This document shows positions 1-42,939 of a stretch of DNA of 64,000 bases, in pieces (the first letter of the stretch is position 1; each line of letters starts with the position of its first letter). The notes beneath the pieces are model-generated. The model was not told the origin of the DNA. It searched no databases and saw nothing but the letters and a program-made list of their open reading frames with translations. The stretch covers positions 3,534,001-3,598,000 of the forward strand of contig NZ_CP089301.1 in assembly GCF_021227995.1 (NCBI RefSeq). Direction: 5' to 3'. The translations under genes and the position numbers were made by a program. Source of the stretch: Novosphingobium kaempferiae (GTDB lineage: Bacteria; Pseudomonadota; Alphaproteobacteria; Sphingomonadales; Sphingomonadaceae).

Positions 1-422
1 TCGCCGATCTTCGCGCCCTCGGCGGCGAAGATCACGTCGCACAGCAGCGCCAGCGTCGCGCCGAGGCCGACCGCGTGGCCGTTCATCCGGCACACCACCG
101 GCTTGTCGATGTCGAGCAGGGTGGAGACGATGCGCTTGGCGACGCGCGCCTCGTGGTCGAACAGGTGCGGATTGCGGGCATTGTTCTCGATGTGGTCGAG
201 GTCGCCCCCGGCCGAGAACGCGCGGCCCGCGCCGGTCAGGACGATGACGTCGGAGCCGGTGTCGCCCTGCGCGAACCACAGCGCCTCGGCCAGATCGTCG
301 TGCAGCGCGAGGTTCACCGCGTTCAGCGCATCGGGGCGGTTCAGCGTGATGCGCAGCAGCCGTCCCTCGCGGGCCATCGCGATCGTGCCGAGCACGGGCA
401 GATCAGGCGCATTGTCGGTCAT
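1..422 (-). CDS. Enoyl-CoA hydratase/isomerase (crotonase family), C-terminus cut by window edge
   Basis: This is the N-terminal 140 or so residues of a crotonase-fold protein; the rest lies beyond base 1. The start ATG (420-422) follows a good GGAAGAGGAGA ribosome-binding site. The reading shows the family features in order: an RITLNRPDALNAV segment near residue 25, an oxyanion-hole loop GAGRAFSAGGDL near residue 65, and NGHAVGLGATLALLCDV near residue 115. Members hydrate or isomerise enoyl-CoA in beta-oxidation-type pathways in the cytoplasm. It is divergent from the flavoprotein at 614, so the 190-bp gap probably holds both promoters. Family is sure, substrate unknown. Confidence 0.9.
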   Translation of the reverse strand, partial: MTDNAPDLPVLGTIAMAREGRLLRITLNRPDALNAVNLALHDDLAEALWFAQGDTGSDVIVLTGAGRAFSAGGDLDHIENNARNPHLFDHEARVAKRIVSTLLDIDKPVVCRMNGHAVGLGATLALLCDVIFAAEGAKIG

Positions 423-2694: not shown

Positions 2695-2916
2695 ATGTTT
2701 GGAAACAATACTGGAGACAACATCGTCGTCTTGACAGGTCGAGAGACCGAAGTCCTCCGTCTTGTAGCTGACGGGTTCTCCGCCAAGGAGGCCGCCATCA
2801 AGCTGAAGATCGCACCGTGTACGGTCGAGCGTCATGTCGAGAACGTGCGCCTCAAGACCCGCACGCGGAACCGCGCGCACATGATCGCGCAGATCCTGCA
2901 GGATAACCTGATCTGA
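2695..2916 (+). CDS. Solo LuxR/GerE-type helix-turn-helix protein, 73 residues
   Basis: The product is almost nothing but a GerE DNA-binding domain: LTGRETEVLRLVADGFSAKE (residues 13-32) is the first helices, and IAPCTVERHVENVRLK the recognition helix region. There is no receiver, PAS or autoinducer domain. The start is supported by AAAGAGGGG eight bases upstream. It probably acts as a DNA-binding transcription factor without its own sensor, working by abundance or through a partner. It lies 240 bp before the E1 alpha gene on the same strand, with hairpins in between, so co-transcription is uncertain. Confidence 0.85.
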   Translation: MFGNNTGDNIVVLTGRETEVLRLVADGFSAKEAAIKLKIAPCTVERHVENVRLKTRTRNRAHMIAQILQDNLI

Positions 2917-2922
2917 AATCCC

Positions 2923-2952
2923 GTGCCGAGGGCGGCGGATCGCCCACGGCAC
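2923..2952. terminator. Strong hairpin just after the solo LuxR gene
   Basis: Twelve-base arms (GTGCCGAGGGCG and CGCCCACGGCAC, one mismatch) begin six bases after the stop codon. There is no T-run, so it could be a 3' stabilising stem, a Rho-assisted stop or a site for a regulator. Confidence 0.4.
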
Positions 2953-2984
2953 CCACGAACAAGTCCGACTGTCGGATGACCATG

Positions 2985-3018
2985 CGGCCGGGGGGCAATC
3001 TCCGGCCGTTCGGCTTTT
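2985..3018 (+). terminator. Candidate intrinsic terminator between LuxR gene and E1 genes
   Basis: Arms CGGCCGG (2985-2991) and CCGGCCG (3002-3008) with a 10-base loop are followed by TTCGGCTTTTC on the plus strand. It would separate the solo LuxR gene from the E1 operon, or attenuate it. The T-tract is interrupted. Confidence 0.45.
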
Positions 3019-3156
3019 CAGGGCAGGGTGCGCCTGCCTTGATACCCACACCGATGACGATACCGCAGGGGCGGTTCGCTCTCTCTTGCCAGTGGGGCAT
3101 GGCCTGAACCAATGTTCAGCCATCCCAGCAGCCACGAGCTGTCCGAGAGAGGAACC

Positions 3157-4170
3157 ATGAGCGACACGCTAACCAACCGGGCCACCCCCGACGCCGCCAC
3201 GCAGCTCGACATTTATCGGCGCATGATCCGCATCGAGCGCAACGACGACCTCACCCGCCAGCAGATCCGCCGTGGGCGCATCACCGCGCCGTACTATTCG
3301 GCGCGCGGGCAGGAGTGCATCCCCTCTGCCATCTCGGTGCTGCTGAACGACGACGACAAGATCTGCACGATCTATCGCGGCATTCACGACATGGTCGCCA
3401 AGGACATGCCGCTGCGCCCGCTCTGGGCCGAGATCTGCGGCCGCGTCGACGGCACCTGCAAGGGCAAGGGCGGGCCGATGCACCTCACGCACCCGGAAAC
3501 CGGCGTCATGGTGACGACGGGCATCGTCGGCTCCTCCATGCCGATCGCCAACGGCTTCGGCTGGGCGGCGCTGCTCGACGGCACCAAGCAGGTCACGGTC
3601 GCCTACTTCGGCGACGGCGCCAGCAACATCGGCGCCTTCCACGAAGCGCTGAACCTGGCCTCCGTCTGGAAGCTGCCGGTGATCTTCGTGTGCCAGAACA
3701 ACGGTTTCGCCGAGCATACCCGGTACGAGAACGGCACTTCGGTGGACCTCATCGCCAAGCGCGCGGCGGGCTACGGCATGCCGGGCTACACCGTGGACGG
3801 CAACGATCCGCTCGACGTCTACGCCCATGCCCACGCCGCGATCGAGCGCGCCCGTGCCGGTGAAGGCCCGACCCTGCTGGAGTGCAAGACCTTCCGCTTC
3901 ATGGGCCACGTCTTCGGCGACAACGACGCCTACATGACCAAGGAAGAGAAGGCCGCCGCAATCGAGGCCGATCCGCTGCCGCGCTTCCGCCAGAAGCTGA
4001 TCGACGACGGCGTCGCATCTGCCGAGGACCTCGATGCGCTGACCGCGAGGATCGAGGCCGAAGTGAACGACGCCATCGACTTCGCCATGGCCTGCGAATT
4101 CCCGTCCGACGACGAACTGCGCCGCGACGTCTTTGCCGAGGAGATTGCGGCCAAGGAGATTTATGCATGA
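3157..4170 (+). CDS. Thiamine-diphosphate-dependent 2-oxoacid/acetoin dehydrogenase E1, alpha subunit
   Basis: A 337-residue E1 alpha. The thiamine diphosphate motif starts GDGASN at residue 152 and ends QNNG about 30 residues later, the classical spacing. E1 decarboxylates a 2-oxoacid (or cleaves acetoin) and passes the acyl group to an E2 lipoyl enzyme. The start chosen is ATG 3157 after GAGAGAGGAACC; an upstream in-frame ATG at 3112 has no comparable site. The stop overlaps the start of the beta gene (ATGA at 4167-4170), so the two are translationally coupled. No E2 or E3 gene is in the window, so substrate and partner are open. Confidence 0.9.
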   Translation: MSDTLTNRATPDAATQLDIYRRMIRIERNDDLTRQQIRRGRITAPYYSARGQECIPSAISVLLNDDDKICTIYRGIHDMVAKDMPLRPLWAEICGRVDGTCKGKGGPMHLTHPETGVMVTTGIVGSSMPIANGFGWAALLDGTKQVTVAYFGDGASNIGAFHEALNLASVWKLPVIFVCQNNGFAEHTRYENGTSVDLIAKRAAGYGMPGYTVDGNDPLDVYAHAHAAIERARAGEGPTLLECKTFRFMGHVFGDNDAYMTKEEKAAAIEADPLPRFRQKLIDDGVASAEDLDALTARIEAEVNDAIDFAMACEFPSDDELRRDVFAEEIAAKEIYA

Positions 4171-26819: not shown

Positions 26820-29006
26820 TCACCCGCGCGTGCGAGGCAGGCCCAGCCCGCGTTCCGCCACCATGGAGCGGTGAACCTCGCTGGTGCCGCCGTAGATCGT
26901 GGTGCCCGCCGCATGGCGATAGCACTGGTTGAGGAAGCCCGCAGGCCCATCGCGCTTGGAGAGCGAGGCGGGCGCGGTCAGGTCCAGCAGGTCGCGGCTG
27001 TCGCTGAGGAACTTCTCGGAGGAGTACATCTTCGACATCGGCCCGAAAGCGTGGTTGGGCTTCTTCTCCACGCTCGACCACTGCGCGCGGTAGGTCAGCA
27101 TGTCGGAGATCCACAAGTGCGCCACGCTGCGGGCGAGGCGGGTCTGCGTGCGCACTTCCCCGGCGATACCGAGGTCGCGCGTCAGTTCCTCTGCGGCGTG
27201 GATCATCGCCTTCATGACCTTGGAGAAGCCGCCGCCGTGCTCCAGTTCCAGGGCGGCGCTCATTGTCTTCGTGCCGCCGTCGATTTCGCCGAGGCGCCAC
27301 GAATCCGGGATCACCACGCCGTCGTAGAAGGTGATGTTGGTACGCTCGTCCTGGAAGGTGTGGACGGCCTGCACGGTGACGCCCTTGGTCTTGAGGGGGA
27401 CGATGAACATCGTCAGGCCCTTGTGCTTGGGCACGTCCGGGTTGGTGCGCGTCAGCATGAGGACGTAGCTCGAAAGGTTCGCGCCGCTGGTCCACATCTT
27501 GGTGCCGTCGATGCGCCAGGATCCGTCCGGCTGCTGCGTCGCCTTGCACTGCGCGGCGAAGACGTCCGACCCGCAGGAGGGCTCCGAATAGCCGAGCGAG
27601 CACAGCACGTCGCCGCCGACGATCTTCGGCAGGACTTCGGCCTTCAGTTCGTCCGATCCGTACTTGTCGATCATCATCGCGACCATCGCGGCGACGTTCG
27701 CGCCCGGTGTGTTGTAGCCCTGCCGTTCCATCTCGCCCATCGCGGCGATGCGCGCGTAAGGCGTGATGTTGCGGCCCGACAGGTGCTCGGGGAGGCCGGG
27801 GAAGAGCAGGCTGTGCTCGGCCAGCATCTTGTGGACTTCGGGGACGTAGCCTTCCCAGGAATAGTGGAACTTCGCCTTCTGCTCGGGCGTCACCTTGGTG
27901 GCGAACAGTTCGGCGATCTCGGCGCAGACCTGCCGCGCCTCGTCTCCGAGGTCGAAATCGAGCGGGACTTCGCCGGCAGCGGGGAGTGGCGGCGTCTCGC
28001 CCGCGTAGAGGCGGCGTCCGGCCTCCTCCAGCGCGAGTGCCGGGTCTCCGGCGACGAGCGGCCAGGCCTTTGCCCGCAGGTTGTAGAGGTGGACGTCGTA
28101 CTCGTTCGACAGCCCATAGCCGCCAAAGGTGTGCAGCCCCTGCGCCACCGCCCGCGCCGCCGCGTCGCAGGCGTACCAGTAGGCGAGCGAGATGGTCGGC
28201 GCGGCCTCGTCCGAGCCGTCATGAATGTCGCGGATCGCCTTCCACGCTAGGAACTTGGCGCCGTCGGTATCGCAGAGCAGGTCGGCGAGGGGGTGGGAAA
28301 TGCCCTGGAAGGTGCCGATCAGCTGGCCGAACGCCTTGCGCTCCCCGGCGTAGACCGCGGCCATCTCCAGCGCCTGACGACCAATGCCCGATAGGGCGAC
28401 GGCCATGTAGAGCTTCCACTCCTCCAGCGCCGCCGCGAAAGTGGCCACCGCCGCGTCGCCCGAGCCGAGCACTACGGCGTCGGCGTTCGCAAGTTCGATC
28501 TCGGCAATGGGCGTGGTGGCGAGGTTGGTTTCGGCCTTGCCGTCGAACGCGGTGACGAGCACCACGTCGGAGCCCCGCCGCGCTACGACGGCTTTGGCCA
28601 CCGCGCCGCCTGCGATCCACTGCTTCGGCTTGTCGGCCAGATCGTGCATGGCGATCGTAACGACCGCCTCGCCGCCGATGACCTGCTCCAGCAGTTCGTC
28701 CTGACCGCCAAGCTGGCCCAGCAGCCGCGCCGCCACCAGCGCCTCCGCCAGCGGCCCGGAGACGAGCGTGCGCCCGGCCTCCTCCATCAGCAGCGCCGCA
28801 TCGAACAGGCCAAGCTCCATGCCGCCCGCGCCTTCGGGCACGCGCATCGCGAAGGCGCCGAGTTCGGCAAGGCCGCTCCACAGCGCCGGGTCGAAGCCGT
28901 CGGTCTCCTGTGCCTTGCGCACCCTCACGGTGCTCGAATGCTCGTCGAGAAAGCGCGCGAAGGTGTCGCGCATCATGTGCTGTTCGTCGGTGAGATCGAA
29001 GTTCAT
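26820..29006 (-). CDS. Fused double-domain acyl-CoA dehydrogenase
   Basis: A 728-residue protein, twice the usual length, with two complete acyl-CoA dehydrogenase units. Unit 1 (about 1-340) has ERKAFGQLIGTFQGISHPLAD and LHTFGGYGLSNEYDVHLY. Unit 2 (about 365-728) has SLGYSEPSCGSDVFAA, IDGTKMWTSGANLSS and YGGTSEVHRSMVAERGLGL. The same layout is found in FadE34, which acts on steroid side-chain CoA esters. ATG 29006 begins the first conserved helix and follows GGGAAAGCC; the frame reaches 29057. It is divergent from the hydrolase at 29255. Confidence 0.88.
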   Translation of the reverse strand: MNFDLTDEQHMMRDTFARFLDEHSSTVRVRKAQETDGFDPALWSGLAELGAFAMRVPEGAGGMELGLFDAALLMEEAGRTLVSGPLAEALVAARLLGQLGGQDELLEQVIGGEAVVTIAMHDLADKPKQWIAGGAVAKAVVARRGSDVVLVTAFDGKAETNLATTPIAEIELANADAVVLGSGDAAVATFAAALEEWKLYMAVALSGIGRQALEMAAVYAGERKAFGQLIGTFQGISHPLADLLCDTDGAKFLAWKAIRDIHDGSDEAAPTISLAYWYACDAAARAVAQGLHTFGGYGLSNEYDVHLYNLRAKAWPLVAGDPALALEEAGRRLYAGETPPLPAAGEVPLDFDLGDEARQVCAEIAELFATKVTPEQKAKFHYSWEGYVPEVHKMLAEHSLLFPGLPEHLSGRNITPYARIAAMGEMERQGYNTPGANVAAMVAMMIDKYGSDELKAEVLPKIVGGDVLCSLGYSEPSCGSDVFAAQCKATQQPDGSWRIDGTKMWTSGANLSSYVLMLTRTNPDVPKHKGLTMFIVPLKTKGVTVQAVHTFQDERTNITFYDGVVIPDSWRLGEIDGGTKTMSAALELEHGGGFSKVMKAMIHAAEELTRDLGIAGEVRTQTRLARSVAHLWISDMLTYRAQWSSVEKKPNHAFGPMSKMYSSEKFLSDSRDLLDLTAPASLSKRDGPAGFLNQCYRHAAGTTIYGGTSEVHRSMVAERGLGLPRTRG

Positions 29007-29254
29007 GGCAGGCTTTCCCGGGAGCTTATCGTTGTGGCTTTGCATCGTCCTGAACACAGGTTCGGGGGGCGTTCAATCCGGCCCCACCGGGAATCGCGGG
29101 CGCGATGCGGCAGGGCTCCTCCCGGATGGGGATGGCAATCGCACAAGCGATGGCTGGCGCGCTCTGTGGCCGGGCGAGGGCGGGAACGGTATTCTCGGGC
29201 GCACAAGAACAAGCGGGGCGAAGCACCGGCGCACGCACTCACGGGAGACGAGAG

Positions 29255-31593: not shown

Positions 31594-31609
31594 CCATTCT
31601 CGTTTTTTG

Positions 31610-31623
31610 CTGACTTTGGTTAG
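31610..31623. promoter_or_regulatory. Dyad CTGAC-N4-GTTAG, shared with 41129
   Basis: CTGACTTTGGTTAG. The surrounding 20 bases (31607-31626) match those at 41126-41145 except at two positions. The second copy lies in another divergent promoter region about 9.5 kb away, so a common regulator is likely. Confidence 0.45.
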
Positions 31624-31843
31624 CATCAACAACGCTGTTCATCAAGCGCGATCTTTGTATACGATCAAGTTGACTGCGATGAGCGTTGTTTCCGGGCCGA
31701 CGAGTTGCTTTCGCGCTGCTCAACGCCCGCTTTCAGGGCCGTGTGCCGTGGTCGCCCGATGGTCCGCCAGAGGGCAGGGCTGGTCAATGCCGCGCGGCCG
31801 GTCCATGCCTGTGCAGGGGAAAAGGGAATCATCCAGAGACCAT

Positions 31844-32833
31844 ATGCAGGCGCAGACTATCGCGGGATTGACGGTAACGGCGGATGACCTTGCCCCTAAG
31901 GGATTCGCCTGGCCGGAGCCGGTCGCCGTGATCGATCTCGACATTGCGCCGCAGCATGGCGAAGCGCCTGATCTGCCGCCATGGCCGGTGATCGGCATAG
32001 GAAATCCCGCGCATCCGCTGGCTGCACGTTTGGATACACTGGTCGAGCCGGGTTTTGACGCAGTGCAACTGGTGCTTGCGGTACGGGCGCAGCCGAAGGC
32101 CGCCGCGACGCTGATTCAGCTCCTGCGCCTGCTGCCTTCGCTATCGGTGGCCGACGGCCTCGTCGCCGAGTCGCTGGCCTATGCGACGCTGCAGGCGAGC
32201 GAAGCGCATCGGACATGGATCGCGGTGCGCGAGTCGGGCACGCCGACGCCGCCCGGTCGCGTCGTGCTCACCCGCGAGGACGACCGCGCCATGGCCATGC
32301 TCGACCGCGCGGAGGCGGGCAACGCCATCGACCGCCCGATGCGCGACGCGCTGCACGAAGCCTTCGCGCTGGTGAACCTCGATCCGACGATCAGTTCGAT
32401 CACGTTGCGCGGGGCTGGTCGAACATTCAGTCTCGGCGCGGACCTTGCCGAGTTCGGCACCACGCGAGATCCCGCCATGGCTCACGCGATCCGCATGCGC
32501 ACTCTGCCCGCGCTGGAGGCGGCGCGCTGTGGGGAGCGGTTCGTGGCGGAGATCGACGGTGCCTGCGTCGGATCGGGGCTCGAACTCGCGGCCTTTGCGG
32601 GCCGGATCACGGCGACGGCGCGCTCGTGGTTCCAGTTGCCGGAACTGGCGATGGGCATCATCCCCGGCGCGGGCGGCTGCGTGTCGCTGACGCGCCGGAT
32701 CGGGCGCCAGCGCACCGCGCTCATGGTCCTGTCAGGCCGCCGCATCCCGGCGCGCAAGGCGCTCGAATGGGGCCTGATCGACGCCATCGTGGATCAGCCT
32801 TCCGCCCGCGATGGTGGCGACGACGCGGGCTGA
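31844..32833 (+). CDS. Long enoyl-CoA hydratase/isomerase with N-terminal extension
   Basis: A 329-residue crotonase whose conserved core starts only near residue 137 (RVVLTREDDRAMAMLDRAE). The core has the oxyanion loop GAGRTFSLGADLAEFG near 190, GACVGSGLELAAFAGR near 236 and MGIIPGAGG. Residues 1-136 include VIGIGNPAHPLAARLDTLVE and LVAESLAYATLQA, which I cannot name as a domain. ATG 31844 is chosen as the first with weak GAGA upstream; the frame is open to 31607. The last 102 bases overlap the convergent amidohydrolase gene. Confidence 0.8.
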   Translation: MQAQTIAGLTVTADDLAPKGFAWPEPVAVIDLDIAPQHGEAPDLPPWPVIGIGNPAHPLAARLDTLVEPGFDAVQLVLAVRAQPKAAATLIQLLRLLPSLSVADGLVAESLAYATLQASEAHRTWIAVRESGTPTPPGRVVLTREDDRAMAMLDRAEAGNAIDRPMRDALHEAFALVNLDPTISSITLRGAGRTFSLGADLAEFGTTRDPAMAHAIRMRTLPALEAARCGERFVAEIDGACVGSGLELAAFAGRITATARSWFQLPELAMGIIPGAGGCVSLTRRIGRQRTALMVLSGRRIPARKALEWGLIDAIVDQPSARDGGDDAG

Positions 32834-34171
32834 TTCGAGGCTTTCGCGTAGTTCGGTCCAGGGCTGCGGCAGCAGGCAGAGGTCGGCCTGCTCGCCCACG
32901 TCGATGCGACGCTGACGAGCAAGGCCAAGCGGATCGGCGAGGTAGAGCGCCAGTGCATCCTCCGGCGACAGTGCCTCCGCAGCGCCGATCACCGCCCCGG
33001 ACGGCGTGCGGCGGCTGACGGCGGCGGCCATCGATTTCCACGGGTCGGCATCGCCATATGGCGCATCGCTCCCACCCGCGAGAGGCACCCCGGCATCCCG
33101 CAAGCTGCGCAGCCGGTAGAGGTCGGCGTGATGGCGTGGCTCCACGTCGGCAAGATAACGGTCGCCGCGCTCGGCGATGAAGTGCGGCTGCACGCAGGCG
33201 GCAAGCCCGAGCGCGCGCATCCGCGCCACCAGATCGGGCGAGGCGACCGAGACATGCTCGATCCGGTCCCCGGCCATGGCACCCGCCGTCTCCAGCAGCG
33301 CAAGGGTAAAGACGAGTTCCACCTCGGTCACGCAATGCACCGCCAGCGCACGCCCCTGATCGCGGCCCGCGCGGATGAGTGCGAGCGTTTCGTCGAAATC
33401 GGGCAGGGCGCTTTCATGCAGGTGCAGTTTGAGCGGCCCAAGGCGCCAGCCCTGTCGTGCGGCCTCGGCCAGCGCAAGGCTGCCCGCCAGAACCGGCCTT
33501 TGCAGCATTCGACGATCCGCAACCTGCGCCGCAAAATGCTGCGCAACATGAGGGTCGTTACGAGGCGACATGTCGGTCACGCCGGTCACGCCCCGGCGTG
33601 CGAGATCGGCACTGATATCAACAAGATCAGGAGGCGCGCTACCGAGGGTCCGGCGCAGCCAGTCGTCCTCGTCGAACAGCCGTCCGGTGAAGCGACCTTC
33701 TTGGTGCTCCAGTCCCGGCGGCGGCGCGGCGGTTGCCAGCAGCATGTCCAACGCCCGCGAGTTCAGCAGCCACATCCGCCCGGTGCGATGCTGCAACCGC
33801 AAGGGCCGGTCGGAAACGAAGCGGTCGAGCGCTGCCGCATCGGGCAGCACGCCACCCAGCACGCTCTCATGGAAGCCGATGCCGCGCAGCCACCCGCTGC
33901 CCGGTAAACGCAACGCCAGGGCAAGCCCCTCCGCATCGAAGACCTGCGGTGGCCCGCACTCGACCGAGGAACGCCGCGCGGCGAGGGCGGACAGGTGGAT
34001 ATGATGGTCATGCAGCCCCGGCAGCAGCAAGCCGCCACGCCCGTCGATGACGTGCTCACCGGGTAACGGAGGCAGTGCTCCGATCGCAGCGATGCGATCG
34101 TGCGCGATGCGAACGTCGCCACGAACTAGCCGGGCGTGGGTGGTCCAGACTTCGGCATCGCGGATCAGCAT
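32732..34171 (-). CDS. Amidohydrolase family 3 protein
   Basis: A 479-residue metal-dependent amidohydrolase. It begins with the small beta-domain MLIRDAEVWT and reaches the metal-binding HDHHIHL near residue 56. Other likely ligands are in LHLHESALPDFDET, AVHCVTEVE and SDAPYGDADPW. Relatives hydrolyse cyclic amides, N-acyl groups or related bonds. The start ATG 34171 overlaps the end of the permuted CoA-transferase gene by seven bases. It is the last gene of the five-gene minus-strand operon starting at 38486, and its 3' end overlaps the crotonase. Confidence 0.85.
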   Translation of the reverse strand: MLIRDAEVWTTHARLVRGDVRIAHDRIAAIGALPPLPGEHVIDGRGGLLLPGLHDHHIHLSALAARRSSVECGPPQVFDAEGLALALRLPGSGWLRGIGFHESVLGGVLPDAAALDRFVSDRPLRLQHRTGRMWLLNSRALDMLLATAAPPPGLEHQEGRFTGRLFDEDDWLRRTLGSAPPDLVDISADLARRGVTGVTDMSPRNDPHVAQHFAAQVADRRMLQRPVLAGSLALAEAARQGWRLGPLKLHLHESALPDFDETLALIRAGRDQGRALAVHCVTEVELVFTLALLETAGAMAGDRIEHVSVASPDLVARMRALGLAACVQPHFIAERGDRYLADVEPRHHADLYRLRSLRDAGVPLAGGSDAPYGDADPWKSMAAAVSRRTPSGAVIGAAEALSPEDALALYLADPLGLARQRRIDVGEQADLCLLPQPWTELRESLESARVVATIAGGRLIHDGVDQAPFERLARRDAAA

Positions 34172-35364
34172 CGGGCGATCTCGCCGAGGTAGCGCGCGGT
34201 GTCGGCACCGATGGCGCTCACGGGTGCCGTCAGCGGTCGCAGTGGCACTTCGGGGAACCTCTCGCCCACCGAAGTACCCCATAGGTTCAGTTCAGTGCCG
34301 TTCAGTGCAGGGTCGTGCGCACGCTCCTCGGCGAGCGCCATGGCGACGATGGCGCTCATCGAAAGCCCGATGCGCTGCGCCTCTCCGCTCCGAAAAGCGC
34401 GGAATCCCTCGCGTGCGGCGACGATCCCGGTTAGCGGATCGGCAATCGCATCCCCGACATAGCCGATCCCGCCCCCAGCCTCCGCCATCGCCCGGCTCAG
34501 ACCCCCGGCGACCCCGCAATCGTTGCCGATCCCGACCCAGTTCGCCGCCTCCCCGCTCGCCCCGTGCCCCGTCACGGACAGCCAGACGAGCCCCGGAACC
34601 TCCCGAACCAGCGCCTCCGCATCGATCCCCAGATGCAGCAGGGCGCGGGGACGCGAGGACTCGATGACGATGTCCGCCCGCCGGATCAGGTCCACCAAGG
34701 CCCGCTTTTCTGCGGGATTCGCAAAGTCGACGAGCAGGCTGGCCTTGCCCTGGTTGATGCGCTCGAACGTCGCCGGATCGTCGCGCCGGATAAGGTCCGG
34801 GCGGCTGCGACTCTCCACCTTCACGACCTCCATCCCGGCCAGCCAGAACAGATGCCCCGCCAGCGGCCCCGCCCAGATTGCTGACATATCGACCACCAGC
34901 GGCCGGTGAAAACTCCCGCGATTCCGCCATTTTCCGCGCGTCATGATCTCGATCGGCGGCGAAACCGGCGTCTCGTCGATGCTCGCAACCGGCAGCCCAA
35001 GCGCGCGACCGATGGCGAGCAGATGCGCGGCATCGTGGCGCAACACGACGGCTGCGATGGCGTCCCAGTTCGTCACGTCGACAGCGGCGTCGCCGAACAG
35101 TGCAGGCAGCAATTCGCGATCCACATCGCGGATCACCGTCAGCGCGAACCAGCTTCCGTCGCGCGTCGGCATCAGGTGGGAGCCACCAAGACCCGCAGAA
35201 ATCCTGCCGTTTATGCGGTAACATCCCGCCATGGCCCGCTCGCCCATGAGTGTCGCACCGTCTAGCCTCGGCAGGCCGTATTGCTCGGCCATCGCCTGCA
35301 ACTGCCGGTCCGCCCAGCGCGAGAGCGGGATCGCCGGACCGGGGCGGAGAGGGTCAGCCGGCAA
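34165..35364 (-). CDS. Family III (CaiB/BaiF) CoA-transferase, apparently circularly permuted
   Basis: A 399-residue protein with CaiB/BaiF features in the wrong order. The usual N-terminal nucleotide-binding start (VVDMSAIWAGPLAGHLFWLA, then EVVKVES) is at residues 157-185, and the catalytic aspartate motif IADPLTGIVAA is near 307-317. The element normally at the C-terminus (LMPTRDGSWFALTVIRDVD, then LGLPVASIDETP) is instead at 64-133. It moves CoA between acids. The start is TTG 35364 with AAGGAAG five bases before it, overlapping the ligase gene; ATG 35292 is the next possibility. Confidence 0.75.
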   Translation of the reverse strand: MPADPLRPGPAIPLSRWADRQLQAMAEQYGLPRLDGATLMGERAMAGCYRINGRISAGLGGSHLMPTRDGSWFALTVIRDVDRELLPALFGDAAVDVTNWDAIAAVVLRHDAAHLLAIGRALGLPVASIDETPVSPPIEIMTRGKWRNRGSFHRPLVVDMSAIWAGPLAGHLFWLAGMEVVKVESRSRPDLIRRDDPATFERINQGKASLLVDFANPAEKRALVDLIRRADIVIESSRPRALLHLGIDAEALVREVPGLVWLSVTGHGASGEAANWVGIGNDCGVAGGLSRAMAEAGGGIGYVGDAIADPLTGIVAAREGFRAFRSGEAQRIGLSMSAIVAMALAEERAHDPALNGTELNLWGTSVGERFPEVPLRPLTAPVSAIGADTARYLGEIARC

Positions 35365-36853
35365 GGACTTCCTTGACCTTGCGGCGTAGCAGCTTGCCCA
35401 TCTCGTTGTACGGAAGTTCCTGAACGAACGCGACTTTCTCCGGCACGCGCGACGAGCGGAGGCGGGAGCGGACGAGGTCTTTCAACTCACCCTCGTCGGG
35501 TGCGGAATGCCCATCGCGCGTGACGATGGCGACACCCACGGCCTCGCCCCACTCCACGGAAGGGATCGCGCAAGCGCAGGCATCGGCGATGGCAGGGTGG
35601 GTGAGGAGCACGTCCTCGATCTCGCCGGGGGACATGTTCTCACCCCCGCGCACGATCACGTCATCGGCGCGGCCGGAGAGGAACAGGTAGCCGTCCTCGT
35701 CCATGTAGCCCGCGTCGCGCGTGGGGAACCAGCCGGCGGCGTCGAGCGCGCTCTTTTCCTTGTATTCCCCCGATACCTGATCGCCGCGCACGTAGATTTC
35801 ACCCGCTTCGCCAAGCGGCAGGACTTCGCCGTTTTCTCCCCGAATCTCGATCTCCACGGTGGGGATCGGGCGGCCGAGCGAGGTGAGGCGGGCGCGCACT
35901 TTCGGATCGTCGGAGGCGAGCGCCTCGCGGTGATCCTCCGGGCCGAGCAGGGCGATCGTCGAGCTGGTCTCGGTGAGGCCGTAGGCATTGGTGAAGCCCG
36001 CCGAGGGGAAGCGCTCCAGCGCCTTGTGTATCACCTCCAGCGGCATCTTGCCGCCGCCGTAGGCGATGGCGTGCAGCGATGCGGTGTCGGCGCTGGAGCC
36101 CTTTTCCATGGCATCGACGATTCGGGCCAGCATCGTGGGCACGACGAAGGCGTTGGTGATAGTCTCGGCTGCCACGAGCGCCAGCCACGCCTCCGGTGAG
36201 AATGCGGGCAGCATCACGATCCGGCGCTGTGCGTAGATCGAGGAGAGCAGCGCCGAAATGCCCGCGATGTGGTACGGCGGCACGACCACCAGCGCGGCGT
36301 CGGCCTCGTCGGCGCTGGCGAACTCGACGGTGCCAAGAATGTAGCCGAGCAGGTTGGAGTGGCGCAGGATCGCGGCTTTGGGCGCGGCGGTGGTGCCGCT
36401 GGTGAAGAGCTGGATCGCGATCCCTTCGCCCGGATCGTACTCGCGCGCATCGTCGTCGGGCACGGTTTCCTGCGCCTTGAGGGTGAATTCCTCGCGCGAG
36501 AGGATGGTGTGGCCCTGACCGCCCGCGATGCGCATGACGCGCTCCTCGTCACCGATGACGAGGGCGGGCGCTATGCGGCCCAGCAGGGCGGCGAGGTCGG
36601 CGTCGGGCAGGCGGTAGTTGAGCGGGCAGTAGGGCACGCCCGCCAGCGCCGCACCGAAGACCGCGATCACCGCCGCCTCGCTGCTCTCGTCGAGCAGGGC
36701 GACGTATTCGGCCTCGCTGTCCTGGATCAGCGCGAAGGCCCCGCGCGCCGCGGCTAGGAGGTCGCCGTAAGTCCAGCGCTTGCCGTCGCAGACGAGGGCG
36801 ATGCGGTCCGGCGCGGCCTCTGCGGCCATTTCGAGAAGGAGGGCGATGTTCAT
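35354..36853 (-). CDS. AMP-dependent acyl-CoA synthetase/ligase
   Basis: A 499-residue ANL-family ligase. The P-loop region FTSGTTAAPKAAI lies near residue 152, YGLTETSS near 290, GRADDVIVRGGENMSPGEIED near 393, and the catalytic lysine in MGKLLRRKV at the C-terminus. It makes an acyl-CoA from a free acid, ATP and CoA. It is separated by 13 bases from the small upstream gene and overlaps the downstream CoA-transferase by 11 bases. A ligase between two CoA-transferases in one operon is a notable redundancy. Confidence 0.92.
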   Translation of the reverse strand: MNIALLLEMAAEAAPDRIALVCDGKRWTYGDLLAAARGAFALIQDSEAEYVALLDESSEAAVIAVFGAALAGVPYCPLNYRLPDADLAALLGRIAPALVIGDEERVMRIAGGQGHTILSREEFTLKAQETVPDDDAREYDPGEGIAIQLFTSGTTAAPKAAILRHSNLLGYILGTVEFASADEADAALVVVPPYHIAGISALLSSIYAQRRIVMLPAFSPEAWLALVAAETITNAFVVPTMLARIVDAMEKGSSADTASLHAIAYGGGKMPLEVIHKALERFPSAGFTNAYGLTETSSTIALLGPEDHREALASDDPKVRARLTSLGRPIPTVEIEIRGENGEVLPLGEAGEIYVRGDQVSGEYKEKSALDAAGWFPTRDAGYMDEDGYLFLSGRADDVIVRGGENMSPGEIEDVLLTHPAIADACACAIPSVEWGEAVGVAIVTRDGHSAPDEGELKDLVRSRLRSSRVPEKVAFVQELPYNEMGKLLRRKVKEVLAG

Positions 36854-37256: not shown

Positions 37257-38486
37257 TCAGGCGATCGCGCCCTTGGCCTTCCATTCCTCGATCTTGTCCC
37301 ATTCGACGCCCATTTCCATGAGCACGAGTTCGGTATGCTCGGAGGCCTGCGGCGAGCGCGTGGTCTCCACCGGCTCGCCGTTCCACTGGACGGGGCCGCG
37401 CACCAGCTTGAGCGGCGCGCCGCCGTCCGCGCCCTCGACCTCGACTATCATGTCGTTGGCAAGCGCCTGCTCGTCGGTCAGCAGATCGTGGAAGCTCTGG
37501 ATCGGCGCCCACTGACCCGAGAAGGTCTTGAGGTGCTGGCGCCAGTATTCGAAGGGATGCTGCGCGAAGGCCTTCACCAGCACGTCGCTGGCGGCACCTG
37601 CGTTCTCGAACAGCGCGCGCGGTTCGGAGAAGCGCGGGTCGTCGGCGGCTTCGGGCACGCCCAGATGCTCGAACAGGCTGCGGATGTGGCCGGTCGGCGA
37701 GATCGTGCAGAGGTTGATCGTGCCGTTGTCGCTCGTCTGGTAGTTGCCCATGAACGGGTTGCGCGCGGCGCCGCCCGAGCCCGGCATCGGGTTGCGGGTG
37801 AGGATGCCCGTCTCGGCCACCTGCGCGATCAGCGCACCCGATGCCCAGGCGGCGGTGCTGAGTAGCGAAACATCGAGTTCGGTCGCCTCGCCCGTCTTCT
37901 CACGGTGGTAGAGTGCGGCGGAGATGCCGCCGGCGATGAACATGCCGCCGATCGAGTCACCGAATGCGGGAATCCCCTGCGACAGCGGCGCGCCCAGTTC
38001 CTCTGGCGTCATCGAATAGGCGACGCCGCTACGGGCCCAGAAGCAGGTGCCGTCGAAACCGCCGACCTCGCGCTCCGGCCCCTTGTTGCCCAGCGCCGAG
38101 CCGCGCGCGTAGATGATGTTCGGGTTGACGGCGCGGATGTGCTCGACGTCGAACTTGTTCTTCTGGCGGACCTGCGGGAGATAGTTGGTCAGGAAGACGT
38201 CGCACTGCTTCGCCAGTTCGTAGAGCACTTCCTGCCCCTCGGGCGTGGACAGGTCGATGCCGACGCTGCGCTTGCCGCGGTTGGGGTGCTCGAACAGCGT
38301 GTGGCGCAGCGGGTCGAGCTGGACGCCGCCCATGTTGAGGAAACCGCGCTGCGTGTCGCCGCGCACCGGATGCTCGATCTTGATGACGTCGGCGCCCCAG
38401 TCGGCAAGTACCCCGCCCGCTGCGGGCGTGAAGGTGAACTGCGCCACTTCGAGGACGCGCACGCCCTGCATGACCTTAGTCGACAT
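37257..38486 (-). CDS. Family III (CaiB/BaiF) CoA-transferase
   Basis: A 409-residue enzyme in the normal domain order. The N-terminal VRVLEVAQFTFTPAAGGVLA and DVIKIEHP begin the nucleotide fold; the catalytic aspartate is probably Asp177 in GIPAFGDSIGG, followed by AALYHREKTGEATELDVSL. The C-terminal DNGTINLCTISP and ALANDMIVEVE complete it. It transfers CoA between carboxylic acids. It is the first gene of the minus-strand operon ending at 32732. Comparison with this gene reveals the permutation in 34165-35364. Confidence 0.92.
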   Translation of the reverse strand: MSTKVMQGVRVLEVAQFTFTPAAGGVLADWGADVIKIEHPVRGDTQRGFLNMGGVQLDPLRHTLFEHPNRGKRSVGIDLSTPEGQEVLYELAKQCDVFLTNYLPQVRQKNKFDVEHIRAVNPNIIYARGSALGNKGPEREVGGFDGTCFWARSGVAYSMTPEELGAPLSQGIPAFGDSIGGMFIAGGISAALYHREKTGEATELDVSLLSTAAWASGALIAQVAETGILTRNPMPGSGGAARNPFMGNYQTSDNGTINLCTISPTGHIRSLFEHLGVPEAADDPRFSEPRALFENAGAASDVLVKAFAQHPFEYWRQHLKTFSGQWAPIQSFHDLLTDEQALANDMIVEVEGADGGAPLKLVRGPVQWNGEPVETTRSPQASEHTELVLMEMGVEWDKIEEWKAKGAIA

Positions 38487-41142: not shown

Positions 41143-41271
41143 TATGTTGGAATCGCGCAGCGTTGCATCAAGGGCCTGCACCAACGGATCGTCTTCGCGA
41201 TGGGCGGGTTGACGACGGGCGAGGGCGGTTCAAGATCGATCGCCAAGAACGAAGGCAGGGGACGAGCAGGG

Positions 41272-42939
41272 ATGGCGACGGCGCAGCATGAGGAAGCGGG
41301 AGGCGCGTTCGCACCGCTGCGCGAGCGCACGTTCCGCAATATCTGGACCGCCAGCCTGTTCTCCAATTTCGGACAGCTCTTCCTCGGCGTCGGCGCGCAG
41401 TGGGAGATGACCCGGCTGAGCAGTTCGCCCAGTATGGTCGCGCTGGTTCAGACGGCGATGATGATCCCGCTGATGCTGGTCACGCTTCCCGCGGGCGCTA
41501 TCGCCGACATGTTCGACCGCCGCCGCATCGCCATGAGCGGCCTCGCGTTCAGTGCGGTAAGCGCGGCGGTGCTGGCGGGGGTCACCTTCCTCGGGTTGAC
41601 GACACCGTTGCTGCTGTTGGCGTTCTGCGTGCTGATAGGTGCCGGTGTGGCGCTGTTCTCGCCCTCATGGCAGGCCTCGATCCCCGAGCAGGTGTCTCGT
41701 GCGCACCTGCCTGCCGCCGTGGCGCTGGGCACAATCAGCTACAACGTCGCGCGCAGTTTCGGTCCGGCGCTGGGCGGGCTGATCGTGGTGGTCTACGGCG
41801 TCAAGGCCGTGTTCGGCATGACCTCGCTGCTGTACCTGCCGCTGCTGACGGCGTTCTTCTTCTGGCGGCGCGAACACGTCCCTTCGCGCCTCCCGCCCGA
41901 GCGGATCGACCGCGCGATCGTGACGGGTGCGCGTTACGCTCTCCACGCGCCAGCCGTGCGCACCGCCTTGCTGCGCGTGCTGGGCTTCGGCCTGACCACC
42001 GCGACAGCCTCGGCGCTGGCTCCGCTGGTCGCCAAGGATCTGCTGCATGGCAACGCGGCGACTTTCGGCATCCTGCTCGGCGCGCAGGGGGTGGGTGCGG
42101 TGGCCGGAGCCCTCTTCGTGAGCCAGATCCGCGCTGTGATCTCCACCGAATGGGCGGTGCGTCTGTTCGCAATCGGAACCGGCGTCGCTCTCGTAGTGAC
42201 GGGTTTCAGCCATTCTCTGGTGGTGACCTGCCTCGCGTTCCTCGTCGTAGGTGCATGCAACATCCTCACTATCGCGATGCTGAATGTCACCGTGCAACTG
42301 TCCGCACCGCGCTGGGTGACGGCGAGGGCGCTCTCGCTGTTCTCCTCCGCCATCACCGCCGGGATCGGAATCGGCGCCTGGGCCTGGGGCGTCGTCGCCG
42401 CGCACCACGATGTCGCGTTCGCGCTGGTGGCCTCCGGCGTGGCCGTTGCCGGCACGGCTCTGCTGGGCATCATTCTGCCTATCGGCAAGGATTCCGAGGC
42501 CGACATGGACACAGTGGACATCGGCTACGACCCCGCGCCCAACCTTGGCGTGACGTTGCGTTCCGGCCCGATCGTCGTCGAGGTGGAATATGACGTCGAT
42601 CCCGAACTTGCGCGGGAGTTCTACGAGGTCATGATGCAGATGCAGAAAGTGCGAAAGCGCATCGGCGCCTTCGACTGGACGATCTCTCGCGACATCGAGA
42701 ATCCCGCGCTCTGGACCGAGCGCTATCACTGCCCGACCTGGGGCGATTACCTGCGCATGCGGGGCCGCTATACGCAAGGCGACTACGACATCCAGGCGCA
42801 GGCTGACGGATTCAACCGAACCAATCACGGTCGTCGCGTCCGCCGTCGTCTGGAACGACCCTTCGGATCGGTGCGATGGAAGGCGGATTCCTACGATCCG
42901 CAGCAGGAGACGATGGGCTACATCACGCCGGGCACCTGA
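41272..42939 (+). CDS. MFS transporter with C-terminal soluble domain (MFS_3/EntS-like)
   Basis: A 555-residue protein. About 12 membrane segments fill residues 35-430, beginning FRNIWTASLFSNFGQLFLGV, with the MFS loop ADMFDRRRIAMSG near 90. Residues 445-555 form a soluble tail (VVEVEYDVDPELAREFYEVM and ERYHCPTWGDYLRMRGRYTQ) as in the transmembrane-secretion-effector family. Proteins of this family export siderophores or small molecules from the inner membrane. ATG 41272 follows GCAGGG. It precedes a TonB-dependent receptor, so a linked import/export role is possible. Confidence 0.85.
   Translation: MATAQHEEAGGAFAPLRERTFRNIWTASLFSNFGQLFLGVGAQWEMTRLSSSPSMVALVQTAMMIPLMLVTLPAGAIADMFDRRRIAMSGLAFSAVSAAVLAGVTFLGLTTPLLLLAFCVLIGAGVALFSPSWQASIPEQVSRAHLPAAVALGTISYNVARSFGPALGGLIVVVYGVKAVFGMTSLLYLPLLTAFFFWRREHVPSRLPPERIDRAIVTGARYALHAPAVRTALLRVLGFGLTTATASALAPLVAKDLLHGNAATFGILLGAQGVGAVAGALFVSQIRAVISTEWAVRLFAIGTGVALVVTGFSHSLVVTCLAFLVVGACNILTIAMLNVTVQLSAPRWVTARALSLFSSAITAGIGIGAWAWGVVAAHHDVAFALVASGVAVAGTALLGIILPIGKDSEADMDTVDIGYDPAPNLGVTLRSGPIVVEVEYDVDPELAREFYEVMMQMQKVRKRIGAFDWTISRDIENPALWTERYHCPTWGDYLRMRGRYTQGDYDIQAQADGFNRTNHGRRVRRRLERPFGSVRWKADSYDPQQETMGYITPGT

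Follow-up and report, generated by a model that had tools for sequence, protein, structure and literature searches.

Normal family III coenzyme A (CoA) transferases build a large (Rossmann) domain from both ends of the chain, with a small domain lying between these ends and joined to the large domain by two linkers, as described in the cited sections of PMC3720670 and PMC9196870. The same sections place the active site between the large domain of one subunit and the small domain of the other, and in the cited part of PMC3720670 the subunits are threaded through each other's central hole. Along the chain, FRC/YfdW, YfdE, Rv3272, CaiB and mesaconyl-CoA transferase (MCT) have the order L-S-T, where L is the large domain, S the small domain and T a C-terminal tail (1 and 2 denote first and second copies). 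Here we describe a CaiB/BaiF-type CoA-transferase of Novosphingobium kaempferiae that likewise has a Rossmann L with an aligned aspartate, an S and a C-terminal tail, but in the order S-L-T, with extra N-terminal helices and with one covalent link between S and L instead of two. Its gene lies in a 64,000-nucleotide stretch of contig NZ_CP089301.1 (positions 3,534,001 to 3,598,000; assembly GCF_021227995.1), the whole of which we call the window. The open reading frame (ORF) is as given in the original prediction, which had noted correctly that it has the length of one ordinary enzyme; its pieces, and the paralogue used as a control, are as follows.

34165-35364, minus strand: coding sequence of the rearranged CaiB/BaiF-type CoA-transferase, 399 residues, TTG start
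35209-35343, minus strand: residues 8-52, two helices (15-29 and 36-47), read as a remnant of a lost L1 plus the linker to S
34963-35208, minus strand: residues 53-134, small domain, from profile-profile comparison and structure model
34918-34962, minus strand: residues 135-149, linker from S to L
34312-34917, minus strand: residues 150-351, large (Rossmann) domain, from Pfam, PDB sequence comparison, structure and profile-profile comparison
34438-34440, minus strand: codon of Asp309, aligned to Asp175 of Rv3272
34270-34311, minus strand: residues 352-365, the normal insertion point of S, read as the scar of a lost S2
34174-34269, minus strand: residues 366-397, C-terminal tail (lGADTa..L) in its normal place, from structure and profile-profile comparison
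37257-38486, minus strand: normal-order CaiB paralogue, control, 409 residues

The Pfam profile CoA_transf_3 matches residues 157-347 only, equivalent to profile positions 6-206 of 366 (E 1.6e-33), while the paralogue at 37257-38486 matches positions 1-366 in full, in keeping with the normal order ascribed to it beforehand. Sequence matches in the PDB (E <1e-4) start at query residues 147-164, which correspond to the start of the solved CaiB-family enzymes, and W164-A-G-P is the beginning of the first motif of the large domain. The motif ADPLTG is retained, and its D309 aligns to D175 of Rv3272 (the PDB title of 5yiy is that of the Rv3272 D175A mutant) and to an Asp of 4ed9 and 10uh. This position is invariant in alignments A1 (65 rows: the window protein and 64 of the 119 other best matches) and A3 (32 rows: the window protein and 31 loci), so that the catalytic aspartate is indeed kept, as had been proposed; a further alignment, A2, held the window protein and 50 of 59 non-redundant fragments. 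The alpha-methylacyl-CoA racemase shares the fold, and its His126, named in a PDB title, would fall at I279 here, a position implied by the aligned range (156-280 to 9-127) and not by a residue-level alignment.

Recognition of the small domain depended on diverse profiles, because shallow ones (65 close homologues against close relatives of the paralogue) failed to detect it, the N-terminal part scoring 16.8 with P 0.15. The profiles compared held 80 rearranged rows and 36 normal-order rows. The rearranged set comprised the window protein, 77 of the 80 related loci described below, and L082 and L083; L038, L039 and L072 were left out of the alignments for a cut or broken ORF, hhalign used 74 of the 80 rows after its own filter, and the start codon at each locus was taken as the first in frame, which makes some N-termini too long (for example L015 and L083). 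With these profiles hhalign places residues 39-129 on columns 224-329 with a score of 39.1 (probability 69 percent, E 4e-4), against a maximum of 19.5 in 100 column shuffles and 10.7 for the reversed control. In native order it places residues 150-345 on columns 4-217 (E 2e-35) and the tail, residues 366-397, on columns 362-393 (E 0.045; score 22.9 against a maximum of 15.0 in 100 shuffles). The C-terminal position of the tail is also seen in the structure comparison, where, for example, model residues 153..395 lie over 5yiy_B 11..393 (first and last aligned residues only). In a model of residues 8-152 (predicted local distance difference test, pLDDT, 88.8; predicted template modelling score, pTM, 0.64), residues 53-134 superpose on S of solved CaiB-family enzymes. 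S opens with the loop GRISAGLGG at about the site of the active-site loop in normal enzymes, and a strand at 138-146 in the linker is present in the full-length model and absent from the fragment model. A Foldseek search with the N fragment gave nothing at E <=0.001, its best matches being CaiB-family structures at 2.5e-3, and PADLOC gave no match. Profile-profile comparison and the structure model identify the N-terminal part as a CaiB small domain and not an unrelated one; with S at 53-134 and L at 150-351, the small-domain half precedes the catalytic half as the original prediction had it, and its residues 64-133 are S by profile-profile comparison. Of the features that characterize PF02515, the Rossmann L domain, the catalytic Asp and the small domain are all present, and the order L-S-T, with L built from both chain ends, is replaced by S-L-T.

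The place of S is best judged by rearranging the blocks before alignment. The order L-S-T gives a one-pass alignment over columns 11-393 (346 columns) with a score of 301.9, compared with 287.7 for the circular order L-T-S, 262.6 for the native S-L-T and 262.5 for T-S-L. With HMMER, S placed between L and T beats the native order in 79 of 80 rows, the circular order in 78, the omission of S in 75 and a once-shuffled S in all 80, with small mean gains from the re-placed S (3.7 to 6.0 bits). S is relocated in front of L, and T has been left at the C-terminus.

The arrangement is not confined to this genome. A protein search returned 2307 relatives at E <=0.001, possibly including normal-order ones, and the best 120 of these, the window's own protein among them, align over 90-100 percent of the query length. 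Where names are given among these 120, they are CoA transferase, acyl-CoA transferase, CaiB-like acyl-CoA transferase or hypothetical protein, and under such names S goes unseen in annotation. A scan of GTDB species genomes gave 178 loci with relatives, of which we kept 80, all matching into the N-terminal half; they come from Novosphingobium and other Alphaproteobacteria, Gammaproteobacteria, mycobacteria, Williamsia, a Polyangiaceae bin and others, and the survey of homologues suggested at the outset thus finds the same arrangement in other genomes. In an even sample of the same phylum, at least 185 of 398 genomes match the full-length profile; among the matches listed, three (own genome, G122 and G259) start before profile position 130 and the remainder hit through the L domain. 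Within the same family, at least 22 of 249 genomes match a profile of the N-terminal half at 1e-5. Both counts are lower bounds, at most 4 candidates per genome having been scored in the 398-genome search and 16 in the 249-genome search. In a tree of L domains, thinning left 33 rearranged members, and these group as one clade with support of 99.

Longer relatives preserve traces of a first copy. The N-terminal halves of 15 long relatives, selected by eye, match the normal-order profile over columns 150-333 (56.1, against a shuffle maximum of 17.2), a span that runs from the segment ahead of the catalytic Asp through the two following helices to S. Through this collinear match, the helices of residues 8-52 correspond to those that follow the catalytic Asp in normal enzymes. 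The first-copy Asp position is Ala in L043 and L047. A W..(S/A/C)G motif lies upstream of S in 12 of 80 rows by regular expression, a count that includes L082, without the TG, and misses a degenerate form in L060. Farther upstream, a short stretch in 12 rows equates to columns 18-39, near the enzyme start (21.1, against 14.7 in 200 shuffles). Actinobacterial as well as proteobacterial branches of the tree contain the motif, and the simplest reading is therefore that the long form came first and that the short N-terminus of the window protein is secondary. The CaiB-like remnants in the long relatives are observed, and the rearranged enzymes probably arose from a tandem protein: a fusion of two family III CoA-transferases, L1-S1-T1-L2-S2-T2, would have been the starting point, from which L1 would have decayed to two helices and S2 been lost, so that S1-L2-T2 remained. 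Taken together, the S-L-T architecture and this tandem-fusion origin form an account that we consider reasonably likely. Tandem CaiB proteins exist (810 residues, G000:C1:894348-896549; 822 residues, G328), and in them S1 is followed later by L2, the relative order found here; they keep both units over most of the profile, whereas here only S-L-T is left, and they are not the nearest neighbours in the tree, except for one first half on a long branch. As a separate observation, in the tandem 810-residue CaiB of the same genome (L111, outside the window), unit 1 scores 108.5 bits and unit 2 228.7 bits against the normal profile.

Such an origin would bear on the active site. The small domain of each half of a tandem fusion would cover the large domain of the other half (S1 over L2, S2 over L1); loss of L1 and S2 together would leave one complete site, formed by S1 and L2, which explains which parts are missing. 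S1 would then serve as a lid over Asp309 of L2, closing the site within one chain. The two N-terminal helices were perhaps retained because their equivalents after the Asp in MCT belong to a group of helices that come together at the dimer centre (PMC9196870, in the section cited). Since one covalent S-L link replaces two, the chain is not a closed ring and an interlocked dimer is not expected; the N-terminal helices may nevertheless close the ring non-covalently. The enzyme is predicted to pass CoA to a carboxylic acid, or from one such acid to another, as part of a conserved catabolic gene set that comprises an AMP-ligase, an amidohydrolase and a crotonase. We infer a cis active site, loss of interlocking and CoA-transferase activity. 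Our tentative reading, to which we give somewhat less than an even chance, is of a naturally occurring family III CoA-transferase that is uncatenated and has a single site: a fused pseudo-dimer of which one S and one L remain in one chain.

The original prediction had proposed a circular permutation, which in its strict form would join the ends of one ordinary gene and open a new start between L and S. The S-half does stand ahead of the L-half, and of the two orders that the prediction had suggested aligning to the CaiB profile, the circular one aligns better than the native (277.6 against 263.7); that part of the expectation was borne out, but L-S-T does better than the circular order, in the row-by-row comparison as well as in the block alignments. 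A cut and rejoining between L and S would also give S-T-L, and the protein is S-L-T: in structure and profile-profile comparison the tail directly follows L and not S. The long relatives, moreover, retain remnants of a first copy, and we regard a strict circular permutation as improbable. Circular permutation by tandem duplication and trimming is a general model, and here likewise a two-copy fusion followed by loss alters the order; the difference is that an inner S2 is lost and the tail stays, giving a relocated domain. An assembly error or chance resemblance is excluded by the coverage of the query in the best matches and by the 80 loci in other genomes, which come from several phyla; this explanation, or that of a frameshift product, has a negligible probability.

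With the relocated S and the tandem origin granted, the chains may still pair in more than one way. In a domain-swapped homodimer S would lie over the L of the partner, without covalent interlocking; this differs from the single-chain reading only in the cis site, and it accords with the normal members, in which the site lies between subunits in the cited sections of PMC3720670 and PMC9196870. Nothing direct speaks against it, and we consider it possible, though rather unlikely. In a different arrangement the protein would be active only when paired, as a mixed dimer, with the normal-order CaiB encoded in the same operon. At least 44 of the 80 loci have a normal-order or second CaiB-family ORF in their fetched flanks (a lower bound, from ORFs >=250 aa in flanks up to 6 kb), which makes a mixed dimer possible there, and the PDB list includes the CoA-transferase BbsEF, with two kinds of chain. 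Against this, A1 and A3 show no variation at the aligned Asp, and no other CaiB-family ORF of that length appears in the flanks of the 18 loci titled Mycobacterium, Mycolicibacterium or Mycobacteriaceae. Obligate mixed dimers seem a poor candidate, with a low probability.

Several observations, including the CaiB-family ORFs in these flanks, weigh against the account of a relocated S, a tandem origin and a self-contained enzyme. The single-sequence signal of S in place is only about 1 bit for the window protein, and in Pfam searches of N-terminal fragments the window protein had no match and CoA_transf_3 appeared in 2 of 51 (best E 0.032). The N-terminal helices and S together superpose on normal enzymes with a root mean square deviation (rmsd) >9 and do not form one rigid body there; residues 2..122 of the N-fragment model cover 10ui_D 210..365 at rmsd 9.3. 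The tail is missing in five of seven further loci, where the protein ends right after L (L125, L127, L128, L129 and L131, in G587, G626, G420, G434 and G259, with L matches that stop at 195-198 of 250), and part of the family can therefore do without it. The L-domain tree does not group the family beside the second halves of the few tandem proteins sampled, and its nearest neighbours under midpoint rooting are long branches, namely one tandem first half and three single proteins. Seven further loci matching in the N-half, of which two have long open frames, yielded no intact L1-S1-L2 intermediate, and the long frame of G587 seems, by eye, to run out of frame into the adjacent gene. The claim of a relocated S is independent of the points on the tree, the intermediate, the missing tails and Pfam; the claim of a tandem origin depends on them in part.

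The rearranged gene lies between, and overlaps, an AMP-ligase ORF and an Amidohydro_3 ORF.

35354-36853, minus strand: AMP-dependent acyl-CoA ligase, overlapping the start of the rearranged gene by 11 bases
32732-34282, minus strand: Amidohydro_3 family hydrolase ORF, overlapping the end of the rearranged gene
31607-32833, plus strand: enoyl-CoA hydratase/crotonase-type ORF

Across the 80 related loci, an amidohydrolase relative starts <=1.2 kilobases downstream on the same strand in 71, an AMP-ligase relative is present somewhere in 67 (only 25-29 percent identical in mycobacterial loci) and a crotonase-type relative somewhere in 69, which suggests, from gene content, a catabolic module for the activation and beta-oxidation-like breakdown of some acid. 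Within 31607-36853, head-to-tail overlaps join the AMP-ligase, the rearranged CoA-transferase and the Amidohydro_3 ORFs, and the gene set recurs across phyla. The crotonase domain in 31607-32833 matches profile positions 10-175 of 251 only, with >200 ORF residues ahead of it, and at its 3' end this ORF shares about 100 bases with the convergent amidohydrolase ORF. Elsewhere in the window, 26820-29057 encodes a 745-residue protein in which two acyl-CoA dehydrogenase units are fused, and the MFS-type transporter ORF at 41200-42939 has an MFS_3 match that extends to residue 552, past the MFS_1 part (49-393). At L037 (about 2729-4064), the normal-order CaiB beside the rearranged gene is split over two ORFs, possibly through a frameshift or sequencing error.

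Searches of an open-access library found no description of the S-L-T arrangement. If the proposed reading is true, a fold known from dimers that interlock also occurs in a form that does not, and the family illustrates the relocation of a domain by fusion and selective loss. With a conserved branch in which the ring is broken, one could test directly whether these enzymes need interlocking to fold, to be stable or to catalyse their reaction.
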